A program made the position numbers and the translations under genes. A stretch of 41,535 nt of DNA from the NCBI RefSeq assembly GCF_016793285.1, contig NZ_JAEUMO010000021.1, positions 1-41,535 on the forward strand. The letters run 5' to 3'. The DNA is from Phenylobacterium sp. (GTDB lineage: Bacteria; Pseudomonadota; Alphaproteobacteria; Caulobacterales; Caulobacteraceae). This document shows, in pieces, positions 18,400 through 21,765 of the stretch. The notes beneath the pieces are model-generated. The model searched no databases. It was not told where the DNA came from and saw only the letters and a list, made by a program, of their open reading frames with translations. Position 1 is the stretch's first letter; each line of letters starts with the position of its first letter.

Positions 18400-18803
18400 C
18401 GCCGCGGCGCCGACAGCGAGGCGTAGATGATCGTGAAAAGGATCAGGTAGCTCCAGATGATCTGGGCGGTGATGTAGGCCCAGGCGCTGATGCCCGTGTC
18501 GAGCGTCTTGGCGCCGTGGGTGACGACCTGGAGGAGACCGAATCCGGCCGCGAACAGGGGCCAGTAGCGTCGCGTCTTCATCGACAGCCAGACGAAGACG
18601 ACGAACTGCACCGTATCGACCGCGAAGATGCCCCACTGTGTGTCGCGGCTCCCGGTCCGATAGACGACCATGGTGACCGCCCAGGCGGCCAGCATCGTGA
18701 AGGCGCCGAGGCGCTCTTCCTCGCGACCGCGCCACAGCGCGGCGAGGCCGGCGCCGATCACGACGGTCGGATAGGTCCACAGAGGAAGCTGGAAGGCGGA
18801 CAA
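18342..18803 (-). CDS. Unrecognised small multi-pass membrane protein
   Basis: 153 residues if TTG 18803 is the start; no ATG or GTG gives the first membrane segment without running into the terminator hairpin upstream. Hydrophobic segments are at about residues 8-25 (TYPTVVIGAGLAALW), 33-50, 60-75 and 110-130. The C-terminus is cytosolic-looking and charged. I do not recognise the family. Its 3' end overlaps comM by 58 bases tail to tail. The hairpin 18808-18833 ends four bases before the proposed start, so either this gene has its own leaderless promoter or the start is misjudged. Confidence 0.6.
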   Translation of the reverse strand: MSAFQLPLWTYPTVVIGAGLAALWRGREEERLGAFTMLAAWAVTMVVYRTGSRDTQWGIFAVDTVQFVVFVWLSMKTRRYWPLFAAGFGLLQVVTHGAKTLDTGISAWAYITAQIIWSYLILFTIIYASLSAPRRYAEIEAMPAIDPPGATRR

Positions 18804-18807
18804 AGAA

Positions 18808-18833
18808 CGGCCCTCGGTTGAACCCGAGGGCCG
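18808..18833 (-). terminator. Rho-independent terminator
   Basis: CGGCCCTCGG (18808-18817) and CCGAGGGCCG (18824-18833) form a perfect 10-bp stem with a six-base loop. Read on the minus strand it is followed by TTCTTTG. It would end transcription of the 18871-19233 gene. Confidence 0.75.
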
Positions 18834-18870
18834 CACTCTGCCAGATGGTGTGAGCGGTTTGAACCGCCGA

Positions 18871-19233
18871 CTACGAGGCGACCCGCAGGGTGCGCATGCG
18901 GACCCGCTCGACTTCCAGGCCTTCCGGCGGCGGCTTCTCACCGGGGTCGCCGCTGAGCGTCACGGCGCCGAGGCCGATCTGGCCCTGGACGACACTGAGC
19001 TCCCTGTGGGTCTCGACGATGGCGCGGCGGGCTTCGGCCAGGGCCATGATGGCCTGGCTGGCGCGCTCGACCGCGTCCTGCCCGATCAGCGCCGAGGCGC
19101 CGGCGACCTTGCGGAGGGCAGGCATCGCGCCCGTCAGGGCGGCAGTCTTGCTGAGCGCCGCGTCGATGGCGGCTTCAGCGTCGAACAGGGCGGCGGCGAC
19201 CTCTTGGGCGGCCATGCGGCGTTCTTTGAGCAT
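18871..19233 (-). CDS. Unrecognised 120-residue helical protein
   Basis: ATG 19233 has GGAG seven bases upstream. Residues 1-85 are Ala/Glu/Leu-rich and predict as long helices (for example AAQEVAAALFDAEAAIDAAL), possibly a coiled coil. Residues 90-120 are polar with a basic end (EVERVRMRTLRVAS). There are no cysteines and no signal peptide. Helical bundles of this kind occur in scaffold or cell-envelope proteins, but nothing specific can be claimed. It follows the LuxR-type gene by 69 nt and ends in a terminator. Confidence 0.65.
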   Translation of the reverse strand: MLKERRMAAQEVAAALFDAEAAIDAALSKTAALTGAMPALRKVAGASALIGQDAVERASQAIMALAEARRAIVETHRELSVVQGQIGLGAVTLSGDPGEKPPPEGLEVERVRMRTLRVAS

Positions 19234-19302
19234 GAGTTCTCTCCATGCGCGTCCGTCAACACGGCGCGCCGTTACATTCAGCGATCAGGGTTTCGTAGCC
19301 GT

Positions 19303-20055
19303 TCAGGCTTTTAGTAAATTCGCCGCCAGATCGTTGAGGGCGTGGAGGCCCGCCAGCATCCCCCCGAAGGCGAGGACGGTGACGACGGCGATCCCGACGA
19401 TCGCGACGACCCGGACGGCGGGGCTCAGTTCATTTCGGCGGGTCCAGTCTCCGCTTCGCCCTTGAAGTTCTCGTCCAGGAGAACCCAGGTGAGGCAGAGG
19501 ATTTCCCGCAGCACCATTTCCGGCGGCTTGAACGGCGCCAGCTTCCGGGTCGCGGAAACCAGATGCCGCGCCATGTCCGCCTGCGCCGGCGTCGCCGAGA
19601 GATCGACGAGCTGCCGCTCGAGCTGCGTCCATGAGAAGCCGGGAAGAAGCTCCTCCCGCCTCGCCAAGGCCGGCCAACGCTCCTCGAAGTCGTCGATCTC
19701 CCGGCGAAGGCGGAGCGCCCTGCCAATCACCGCCCTGTTCTCGAAGCTCGGCCACTCGCCCATCGGATGTCTCCTCGGTTGCGAGGGCATCCGGCCAGCT
19801 TCGGTTAACCGTGTCTGTCCTGATCGTGTCGTGTCCTGACGCGATCAGGACAGCGCCGCGGTCGAGTTCGCGCAGCAGCCTGGCCGCCTGGAAGCGGTCG
19901 TCCACGCCCAGCTTCCGGCGCGCGCGGTCGCAGTAGGTGTCGACGGACGTCTTGGACATCCCGAGTTCGCGGGCGATCTGCTTGGAGCTGAGATGCTGAT
20001 CGACCAGCCGCAGACAATCCCTCTCGCGCTGGGTCAGGATCTCGACAGGGTTCAT
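19303..20055 (-). CDS. LuxR-type helix-turn-helix protein with C-terminal membrane segment
   Basis: 250 residues from ATG 20055. Residues 5-65 are a clear LuxR helix-turn-helix: LTQRERDCLRLVDQHLSSKQ, then IARELGMSKTSVDTYCDRARRKLG. Residues 212-245 form one hydrophobic segment (VRVVAIVGIAVVTVLAFGG). Similar HTH-linker-membrane proteins are frequent in Caulobacterales. The middle (about residues 85-210) has poor codon bias in this frame and coincides with a better-coded gene in another frame (19425-19763). So the single chain is the literal reading, but the HTH part and the membrane part might instead be separate products. There is no receiver domain. Confidence 0.65.
   Translation of the reverse strand: MNPVEILTQRERDCLRLVDQHLSSKQIARELGMSKTSVDTYCDRARRKLGVDDRFQAARLLRELDRGAVLIASGHDTIRTDTVNRSWPDALATEETSDGRVAELREQGGDWQGAPPSPGDRRLRGALAGLGEAGGASSRLLMDAARAAARRSLGDAGAGGHGAASGFRDPEAGAVQAAGNGAAGNPLPHLGSPGRELQGRSGDWTRRNELSPAVRVVAIVGIAVVTVLAFGGMLAGLHALNDLAANLLKA
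19425..19763 (-). CDS. Gene nested in another frame inside the LuxR-type gene
   Basis: 112 residues from ATG 19763, preceded by GAGGAG with a seven-base gap, one of the best ribosome sites in the window. Third codon positions are mostly G or C, while the enclosing frame over the same bases is near random. The protein is charged and helical, with motifs EIDDFEERWPALARREE, GFSWTQLERQLVDL and VLREILCLTWVLLDENF. One cysteine is present and no membrane segment. Family not recognised. It ends ATGAACTGA right where the membrane segment of the enclosing frame begins. Confidence 0.65.
   Translation of the reverse strand: MGEWPSFENRAVIGRALRLRREIDDFEERWPALARREELLPGFSWTQLERQLVDLSATPAQADMARHLVSATRKLAPFKPPEMVLREILCLTWVLLDENFKGEAETGPAEMN
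19816..19852. promoter_or_regulatory. 11-bp inverted repeat upstream of the nested gene
   Basis: TGTCCTGATCG (19816-19826) and CGATCAGGACA (19842-19852) are exact inverted repeats. The spacer carries a third TGTCCTGA (19832-19839). It lies 53 nt upstream of the nested gene's start, just after the HTH-coding part. It could be an operator or an RNA hairpin that separates HTH and downstream expression. Confidence 0.6.
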
Positions 20056-20172
20056 GACGCCCCCCAAAGCGCACTCCGTCTTGCGCAGTAAACGACGGGT
20101 TTTGCCCCGCGTCTACTTTGCCGCGTGGTTTACAGGGGCTCGCGTTGTTTTGCAGCAAGTCATTCGTCGCGC

Positions 20173-20205
20173 TTGACGGCCCGTTAAGCCCTCTGCGGCT
20201 AATTC
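20173..20205 (+). promoter_or_regulatory. Weak promoter candidate for the ShkA-like kinase
   Basis: TTGACG (20173-20178) and GCTAATTC (20198-20205) resemble the Caulobacter housekeeping elements TTGACG and GCTANAWC, but the 19-base gap is long. If used, transcription would begin within a few bases of ATG 20215, giving a nearly leaderless mRNA. Confidence 0.35.
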
Positions 20206-20214
20206 GACCGCCGC

Positions 20215-21765
20215 ATGCGTAAACCGACACGGTCCCTCTCCGAACGGCGCCCGGCCCGAGTGCAGATCAGCGCCGAACAACTCGCGTCGCTCAGCCACGA
20301 GTTCCGCACGCCCCTGAACGGCGTGCTGGGCATGGCCCGACTCCTCGAGGGCACCAAGCTCACGGAAGAGCAGAAGACCTATGTCGCGGCGCTCCGCGAC
20401 TCGGGCCAGCACCTGCTCACCCTGGTCAACGACGTCCTCGATTTCGCCAAGCTGGGCGCCGGGCGCCTGGAGCTGCATCCGGCGCGCACCGACATCGAGG
20501 CGCTGCTGCAGAGCGTGGCCGAGCTGCTGTCGCCGCGGGCCCGCGAGAAGGACCTGGAGATCGCCTGGGCCGCGCGGGCCGCGCCGCTCACGATCCACGC
20601 CGACGAAAGCCGCCTGCGCCAGATCCTGCTCAACTTCGCCGGCAACGCCGTGAAGTTCACCGAGACCGGCGGCGTCCTGATCACCGCGGCGGCGCCGGAA
20701 CCCGGCGTGCTGCGCTTCACGGTCGAGGACACCGGGCCCGGCGTGTCGGACTCCGACCGCGACCGCATCTTCGAGGCCTTCGCCCAGGCCGAGACCGCGC
20801 ACGCCGACCTCGGCGGCTCGGGCCTCGGCCTCGCCATCGCCCGGCGCATCGCCCGCGCCATGGGCGGCGAGGTGGGCGTCGAGACGGCCCGCGAAGGCGG
20901 CGCCGCGTTCTGGTTCGAGGCCGAACTTCCGATCGTTCCCGCGGCGCCGCGCGGCCTGCCCCTCTCGCGCCGGCGCGTGGGCGTCGCCTCGCCGAGCCGC
21001 ATCGTGCGCGCCGCGGCGGCCGCGCAGGTCGAAGCCTGCGGCGGGACCGCGGTCTGCGGCGAGACCGTCGCCGAGGTCGTCGCCGCCACGCGGACCGGCG
21101 ACGTCATCCTGGTCGACGCCGGCCTGGCCGGACCGACGGGCGCGCTCAGGCCGCCGGCCCAGCGCAAGGGCATCGTGCTGCTGGCGCCCGACGAGCGCGA
21201 CCGCGTGGCGCGCTATCGCCGGGCGGGCTTCACGGGCTACCTCATCAAGCCGCTCCGCCGCGCATCGCTGGCCGAGCGCGTGCTGATCGCCGCGGGCGAG
21301 GCGCCCACCGCCGCGCCGCCGCGCGAGGACGAGCGCATCGTGACGGCCGCGGCGCCGGGCGCGCGCATCCTGCTCGTGGAGGACAACCCGATCAACGCGC
21401 TCCTGGCGCGCACCCTGCTGACCCGCGAGGGCTGCGAGGTCGAGCATGTGACCAGCGGCGCCGAGGCGCTGAAGGCCGCCGACATGGGCGCCTTCGACGT
21501 GATCCTGATGGACATGCGGATGCCCGGCCTGTCGGGCGAGGAGACCGCGGGCCGCCTGCGCGAGGCCGGCATCGCGACGCCGATCGTGGCGCTGACCGCC
21601 AACGCCTTCGAGGACGACCGCCGGGCCTGCCTCGCCGCCGGGATGGACGACTTCCTGGTGAAGCCGCTGTCGCCCGACGCCCTGCGCACCGCGCTGACGC
21701 GCTGGGCCGCGCCCACGAGCCGGGCCAACTGGACGAAGCCCGCCAAGCGCTTCAAGGTCGGCTAG
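20215..21765 (+). CDS. shkA: ShkA-like hybrid histidine kinase
   Basis: 516 residues, no membrane segment and no N-terminal sensor. Order: HisKA with H28 in SHEFRTPLNG; HATPase with FAGNAVKFTE, DTGPGV and GSGLGLAIA; a degenerate receiver (about 245-360) that keeps DVILVD and YLIKPL but lacks the N-terminal acidic pair; then a full receiver with VEDNP, phospho-acceptor D433 in LMDMRMPG, and FLVKPLS. This matches Caulobacter ShkA, where c-di-GMP binds the pseudo-receiver and frees the kinase, which feeds ShpA-TacA. The linker has EDER near 371-374, comparable with the DDR motif described there. The adjacent ampG supports orthology. Confidence 0.75.
   Translation: MRKPTRSLSERRPARVQISAEQLASLSHEFRTPLNGVLGMARLLEGTKLTEEQKTYVAALRDSGQHLLTLVNDVLDFAKLGAGRLELHPARTDIEALLQSVAELLSPRAREKDLEIAWAARAAPLTIHADESRLRQILLNFAGNAVKFTETGGVLITAAAPEPGVLRFTVEDTGPGVSDSDRDRIFEAFAQAETAHADLGGSGLGLAIARRIARAMGGEVGVETAREGGAAFWFEAELPIVPAAPRGLPLSRRRVGVASPSRIVRAAAAAQVEACGGTAVCGETVAEVVAATRTGDVILVDAGLAGPTGALRPPAQRKGIVLLAPDERDRVARYRRAGFTGYLIKPLRRASLAERVLIAAGEAPTAAPPREDERIVTAAAPGARILLVEDNPINALLARTLLTREGCEVEHVTSGAEALKAADMGAFDVILMDMRMPGLSGEETAGRLREAGIATPIVALTANAFEDDRRACLAAGMDDFLVKPLSPDALRTALTRWAAPTSRANWTKPAKRFKVG

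Follow-up and report, generated by a model that had tools for sequence, protein, structure and literature searches.

Comparative support for a small gene nested in the linker-coding part of a LuxR-type membrane regulator gene of Caulobacteraceae

Background

Fully nested gene pairs located on the same strand of bacterial DNA are known mostly as single cases, and their reality is disputed. Transmembrane transcription regulators usually possess a periplasmic sensing domain. In these proteins a membrane helix and a DNA-binding domain are combined in one chain (PMC10269533). The small gene laoB of Escherichia coli O157:H7, which is described as a product of overprinting, overlaps the gene of a CadC-like regulator (PMC5810103). 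For CCNA_00832 of Caulobacter crescentus, 804 nt in the +1 and 360 nt in the +2 frame, an internal transcription start and LC-MS peptides for both frames were reported in 2014 (PMC4117421).

Here we describe a pair of genes from the window (the whole 41,535-nt stretch of DNA that was analysed), in which a 112-codon frame lies inside the gene of a LuxR-type regulator. This regulator shares with the transmembrane transcription regulators the predicted combination of a membrane helix and a DNA-binding domain in one chain, and differs from those described in PMC10269533 in its N-terminal LuxR-type helix-turn-helix (HTH), in the position of the helix at the very C terminus without a periplasmic domain, and in the second gene within its linker. 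Like laoB, the nested gene is small and overlaps a regulator gene; laoB is antiparallel, whereas the nested/LuxR pair is located on the same strand and is kept across genera. CCNA_00832 is similar in having a 360-nt frame at +2 within an 804-nt frame and peptides of both, but in the available part of PMC4117421 it is printed as an example of internal transcription start, and an HTH-membrane regulator, conservation and stop avoidance are not described there. Among the titles and opening lines of abstracts returned by a literature search, no description of the nested/LuxR gene pair was recognised.

Methods

Homologous loci were collected by means of the nested protein alone, so that no locus was chosen for its LuxR frame; 36 weaker family rows, with 27-57% identity to the nested protein, were also included. 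Seven duplicate contigs, six of them recognised as pairs with identical DNA and one (L013/L052) by contig and coordinates, reduced the 109 rows to 102 distinct loci. L121 is a false match. The AlphaFold model of the LuxR protein was built from 25 close sequences. The comparison of gene order with C. crescentus made use of the numbers of the flagellin genes.

Results and discussion

The main features of the locus are given in Table 1.

Table 1. Position of the features of the nested/LuxR locus in the window
Feature	Position	Strand	Basis or remark
Downstream 120-aa gene, companion of the regulator	18871..19233	minus	Homologue (score over 100) 3' in 81/90 loci
CDS of LuxR-type HTH - linker - membrane-helix protein, 250 aa	19303..20055	minus	Open frame, ATG 20055; Pfam GerE 5.8e-14
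C-terminal helix with membrane segment, within LSPAVRVVAIVGIAVVTVLAFGGMLAGLHAL	19309..19422	minus	AlphaFold helix 212-249; profile A2
LuxR-protein linker, residues 70-211, nested gene within	19423..19848	minus	pLDDT mostly <50; composition
Nested gene, 112-aa predicted helical protein	19425..19763	minus	ORF, SD site, codon-position GC, homologues, structure model
GAGGAG Shine-Dalgarno-like site of the nested gene	19771..19776	minus	Sequence; seven bases 5' of nested ATG
Third TCAGGACA copy	19816..19823	minus	Part of 12-bp inverted repeat 19815-19826 / 19842-19853
Palindrome TGTCCTGA-N5-TCAGGACA in LuxR coding sequence	19832..19852	.	About 70-90 bases 5' of nested ATG
LuxR/GerE helix-turn-helix domain, residues 6-60	19876..20040	minus	Pfam PF00196; pLDDT about 90, residues 11-60
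Divergent hybrid histidine kinase, HisKA-HATPase-REC	20215..21765	plus	Pfam

The nested gene

The nested frame is shifted by one base against the LuxR frame (phase +1) and lies wholly within it on the same strand, the arrangement expected of an embedded same-strand overlapping gene pair. The original prediction had named a GAGGAG word seven bases before the nested ATG, a strong third-position G/C bias of the 112-codon frame and a LuxR frame open from the HTH to the membrane segment, and each of these is confirmed. The Shine-Dalgarno-like (SD-like) word is read at 19776-19771, GC at codon positions 1/2/3 amounts to 0.67/0.46/0.85 in the nested frame versus 0.86/0.68/0.46 in the LuxR frame over the common bases, and the LuxR frame runs without interruption from its ATG to the stop at 19303. 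Outside the overlap the LuxR frame has 0.65/0.46/0.84 in the part 5' of the nested gene (HTH included) and 0.75/0.43/0.85 in the membrane part. In 50 of 54 loci the start chosen for the nested gene has an SD-like word among the 18 nt that precede it. The nested protein was modelled as four helices with a mean pLDDT of 77.5; the protein itself (P0002) gave no match in Pfam/NCBIfam at E up to 1, 23 members of the nested profile A3 gave scattered weak matches only (best 0.011), and in a fold search of the model against PDB the best match had an E of 0.47, so none reached 0.001.

Conservation of both frames

Homologues of the nested protein, on which the original prediction depended, are present in 56 of 149 family genomes; a search of the named contigs yielded 24 loci, mostly from Phenylobacterium, and a search started from a second-genus member of the nested family gave matches in 63 of the 75 genomes of that genus. 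The first genus is Phenylobacterium by the contigs shared with it, and the second is probably Caulobacter, as judged from its flagellin neighbours. In the class-wide search, the nested profile A1 matched 1 of 385 genomes, its own, and profile A3 (E up to 0.01) matched four of 385: its own, G024 and two with weak matches, which we do not believe.

Invariant residues among 18 aligned nested proteins include F26, W30, P31, W45, R50, Q51, K79, P80, R86, E87, D97 and E98. In 23 sequences of the Phenylobacterium group, differences at the first, second and third nested codon positions (first 100 codons) are 0.129/0.058/0.350, a protein-coding signature which indicates that the nested frame is a real protein gene. 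These sequences share on average 86.6% identity in the nested protein versus 58.8% in the LuxR frame over the same bases. Divergence at four-fold sites in this group reaches 0.431 in the nested gene versus 0.496 in the HTH part, a slight reduction only, which suggests that the LuxR frame over the nested gene is constrained little beyond staying open.

An unbroken LuxR frame, leading from the HTH through the nested gene to the C-terminal membrane helix, is present in 103 of the 109 rows. The original prediction had also allowed for a frameshift error in the assembly; the HTH-to-membrane frame was found intact in the window and fused in 96 of 102 distinct loci. As to the six exceptions, in L027, L153 and L089 the HTH is located in another frame than the linker and the linker frame is still open over the nested gene, L115 possesses an HTH together with an open frame of suitable length, the hydrophobic end of which was missed by the score, in L108 no HTH was found, and the sixth is the false match L121. 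At the level of sequence comparison, dual coding of this DNA, with both frames being coding, is supported.

As a separate observation, runs of 5-8 C occur between the HTH and the nested gene in L021, L025, L027, L148, L151, L153 and L159. They include L027 and L153, which are two of the three loci where the frame is broken, and slippage or phase variation may be possible there.

Domains of the regulator

The GerE domain scores 51.9 bits against a Pfam gathering cut-off of 23.5, which places the protein among the LuxR/GerE HTH proteins. The AlphaFold model comprises a confident HTH, a linker of mostly low confidence (pLDDT <50) and a predicted helix 212-249. The linker over the nested gene is Gly/Ala/Arg-rich and, because of the low confidence of the model, is taken as disordered. 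The predicted helix extends to the C terminus (residue 250), leaving no periplasmic sensing domain behind it, and the joining of a predicted membrane helix with a DNA-binding domain in one chain is that of a transmembrane regulator. Profile A2 of the membrane segment has 10 invariant columns among 18 sequences.

Palindrome upstream of the nested start

The palindrome located in the LuxR coding sequence occurs, with at most one mismatch, at a single place in the 4.49-Mb genome. It is exact in 20 of 21 aligned sequences, L042 having one mismatch, and in 36 of the 109 rows. In Phenylobacterium it is accompanied by the further copy of TCAGGACA 5' of the nested start. Two or more half-sites within 500 nt upstream are present in 39 rows of the 109, and these 39 all belong to a set of 42, L001-L018 and L031-L054; L015, L017 and L018 have one half-site each, and two are reached in no row beyond the 39. 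At the same position the second genus has another conserved sequence with a similar core. The codons that make up the palindrome are rare in this DNA (TCA 2/305 Ser, GGA 20/696 Gly, AGG 34/595 Arg, ACA 8/347 Thr), and its columns vary hardly or not at all among the 21 sequences, which together argue for selection acting on the nucleic acid and not on the protein alone.

We regard the palindrome as a candidate operator or RNA hairpin, which would serve dedicated control of the nested protein relative to the regulator. That it is an RNA hairpin, coupling or attenuating translation of the nested gene, rather than a DNA operator, seems to us to have somewhat less than an even chance. The transcript segment with the palindrome folds far better than its shuffles (z -5.23), which is in favor of the hairpin, but its arms are nearly invariant and display no covariation (term -0.04), therefore the RNA and the DNA reading are not separated by these data. 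A hairpin masking the SD site, present in the fold of the window, is absent from the consensus structure. The Rfam search of 18800-20300 gave two matches, both under the gathering score. Between the regulator and the kinase (20088-20215, minus strand) a weak match to Rfam BASRCI414 was noted (25.1 bits, gathering 270).

Avoidance of stop codons in the LuxR frame

In the 41,535-nt stretch, 192 control windows of 112 codons were drawn from 21 long ORFs, and 153 of them are stop-free in the same relative frame versus 6 in the other frame. In such a G+C-rich genome openness of the LuxR frame alone is thus not beyond chance, and the comparison of many genes had to decide. With expected numbers obtained by redealing of synonymous codons, a procedure in which no phylogeny was used, the LuxR frame has 0 stops against 74.8 expected in 38 orthologues (after removal of 16 of the 54 rows as at least 90% identical) and 0 against 31.8 in 34 paralogues, which were not dereplicated. 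For the 72 nested genes pooled, L108 and L121 being left out, 0 stops stand against 107 expected, and the lowest of 300 simulations had 80.

Controls in the same genomes and the same relative frame gave 79 stops against 99 expected in the downstream gene (n=65) and 61 against 86 in the HTH segment (n=69), from which it follows that general codon context would take away 20-30% of the expected stops and not all of them. Third-position T is present in 0 of 1614 cases where a stop in the LuxR frame would result and in 465 of 5676 elsewhere. Within the three groups compared, the two members of a pair differ at 38-43% of their four-fold sites, hence the absence of stops is not merely inheritance. 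The avoidance is visible in every fifth of the nested gene.

Other readings of the locus

Programmed frameshifting, by which the nested protein would be fused either with the HTH or with the membrane segment in place of two independent starts, could find an argument in the runs of 5-8 C between the HTH and the nested gene, present in the seven second-genus loci looked at. We consider it very unlikely, as the HTH and the membrane segment share one stop-free frame and need no shift, the nested start has its own SD-like word in nearly all loci inspected (50/54), and in the window no run of at least 5 is present between the HTH and the nested gene.

As its second option, the original prediction had offered an arrangement of three separate genes, one for the HTH, the nested one and one for a membrane peptide. 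In the form considered here the HTH gene would be short, and the small membrane peptide would arise by reinitiation where the nested gene stops. The nested stop does overlap the start of the membrane segment, GC3 switches the frame twice, and 20 of 88 loci have an ATG, GTG or TTG close to the nested stop in the frame of the membrane segment. The remaining 68 of 88 have none in this frame between 60 nt upstream and 15 nt downstream of that stop, the HTH frame continues into the membrane segment in almost all distinct loci (96/102), and the avoidance of stops over the whole nested gene, not just its end, speaks against a short reinitiated peptide as its reason, which makes this arrangement extremely unlikely; the start-codon counts and the gene-wide avoidance led us to reject it. 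Used as the only query, the membrane-segment profile found 34 of 148 family genomes, in every case directly beside a match of the nested gene. Of the 56 genomes in which the nested protein was matched, 22 gave no match to the segment, mostly those with distant copies only, and one of these 22, G148, may not have been drawn in the segment search.

A reading in which nothing but the nested gene and the HTH is genuine, with the LuxR frame kept open by G+C-rich codon bias, as in the 153 of 192 ordinary windows, is scarcely credible in view of 0 stops versus 107 expected in 72 genes (the neighbour gene and the HTH having 79 and 61) and of the 10 invariant columns of the membrane segment in 18 sequences, and mere chance openness is rejected on the same stop counts. 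The first option of the original prediction, two proteins made from the same DNA, has withstood the comparison: both frames are conserved, and the LuxR frame is free of stops in all 72 genes.

Dual coding and its possible function

Very probably, then, the locus is dual-coding and gives a membrane-anchored LuxR-type regulator (A) together with a small soluble helical protein (B), whose roles as a partner and in control are our inference. The genomic comparison has established conservation of both frames, a start of its own for B, the stop-free state of A and the lack of a separate membrane gene, each as a property read from DNA. Frame A would yield a regulator with an N-terminal GerE HTH, a long flexible tether and a single C-terminal membrane helix, and frame B, shifted by one base inside the tether-coding part, a soluble helical protein from its own SD site and start. 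Frame B appears to be tuned as a protein, and frame A over it to be held open and hydrophilic as a spacer. A might bind DNA while tethered, and B might act in the same pathway, most likely as a partner or antagonist of A, along with the conserved downstream protein. The palindrome, placed in A and upstream of B, may be the operator of an internal promoter or an RNA hairpin, and would set the amount of B versus A.

A broader reading is offered with considerable reserve, since we hold it to be rather unlikely: in Caulobacteraceae the tether of the LuxR protein would be the gene of its partner read out of phase, so that about 750 bases encode a regulator, its partner or antagonist, and the linking control site between them. 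Its other part, equally doubtful, is that the tether-partner overlap would have outlasted gene duplications and a divergence that leaves the partner with as little as about 30% identity.

Comparative support for both frames of the nested/LuxR pair comes from many species and several paralogous groups, presumed Caulobacter included. For Caulobacter, a model genus, ribosome profiling and proteomics have been published (PMC4117421). The pair makes it testable how one stretch of DNA remains committed to two proteins for long periods, and whether overprinting takes place readily in flexible linkers.

Possible counterpart in Caulobacter crescentus

We consider it likely that CCNA_00832 belongs to the nested/LuxR family. 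Of six second-genus loci measured, five have an 804-nt ATG frame with a 363-nt nested frame at +2, the stop being included in both lengths. L204 has no further starts, the remaining four matching loci have longer options as well, and L208 offers 810 and 345 nt. A point against the identity is that the two lengths given in PMC4117421 agree only on the assumption that one includes the stop and the other does not. Sizes of 804 and 360/363 nt at +2 were sought in eight stretches and pointed to the nested/LuxR gene in four of them and to one unrelated site (L212, 15474-16277). Gene order also argues against the identity: CCNA_00830 is a beta-galactosidase-like gene (PMC9007349), and near the beta-galactosidase-like gene other genes would stand at number 832 in two relatives. 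A LysR gene was also considered as the published 804-nt gene and rejected, having in two relatives no 804-nt version and no +2 frame of at least 200 nt.

Related systems and origin of the overlap

Seven sphingomonad plasmid loci (L128, L129, L130, L131, L133, L134 and L135) encode HTH-linker-membrane proteins, which are similar to the LuxR protein in their GerE-like HTH and C-terminal hydrophobic segment and differ in shorter linkers (133-177 codons between the HTH match and the stop). In L131, L133 and L135 a homologue of the downstream gene of the window comes next, with about 40% identity and E of about 1e-18 in BLASTP among only eight sequences; the match is weaker at L129 and L134 and not significant at L128. 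An HTH and a hydrophobic end with no nested gene are also found in G160, G391 and G292, which belong to another family, and in the family locus L146. Profile A3 searched in six frames of the sphingomonad loci, G160/G391/G292 and L146 found nothing at E up to 1, and recovered its positive controls L126 (7.5e-6) and L123 (4.1e-12). The simplest reading of these comparisons would place the origin of the nested gene in the linker, or its insertion there, within Caulobacteraceae.

A plasmid search with the nested protein gave no match, yet a plasmid of Asticcacaulis carries a distant nested gene, which means that this search was too insensitive. At L126 2501-3121 on this plasmid both frames are present, and its gene table, from a collection whose tables are incomplete, has the nested WP_338736634.1 and no HTH-membrane gene, a possible blind spot of annotation.

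Neighbouring genes

The downstream protein, conserved next to the regulator in 81 of 90 loci, and the hybrid kinase, divergent from the regulator in 24 of 24 named-contig loci, would likely be members of the same pathway. In the kinase (20215-21765) no sensor domain was found by Pfam, and the downstream protein gave weak matches only in Pfam/NCBIfam. The downstream-gene profile matched 7 of 385 genomes in the class-wide search. A second copy of the downstream gene is present in the genome of the window (L144, G000:C26:3469-3798), where no HTH gene was recognised just upstream. Two closely spaced copies were observed in each of two genomes of genus g3 (L137, L138, L143 and L145), again with no HTH-membrane gene recognised upstream of them.
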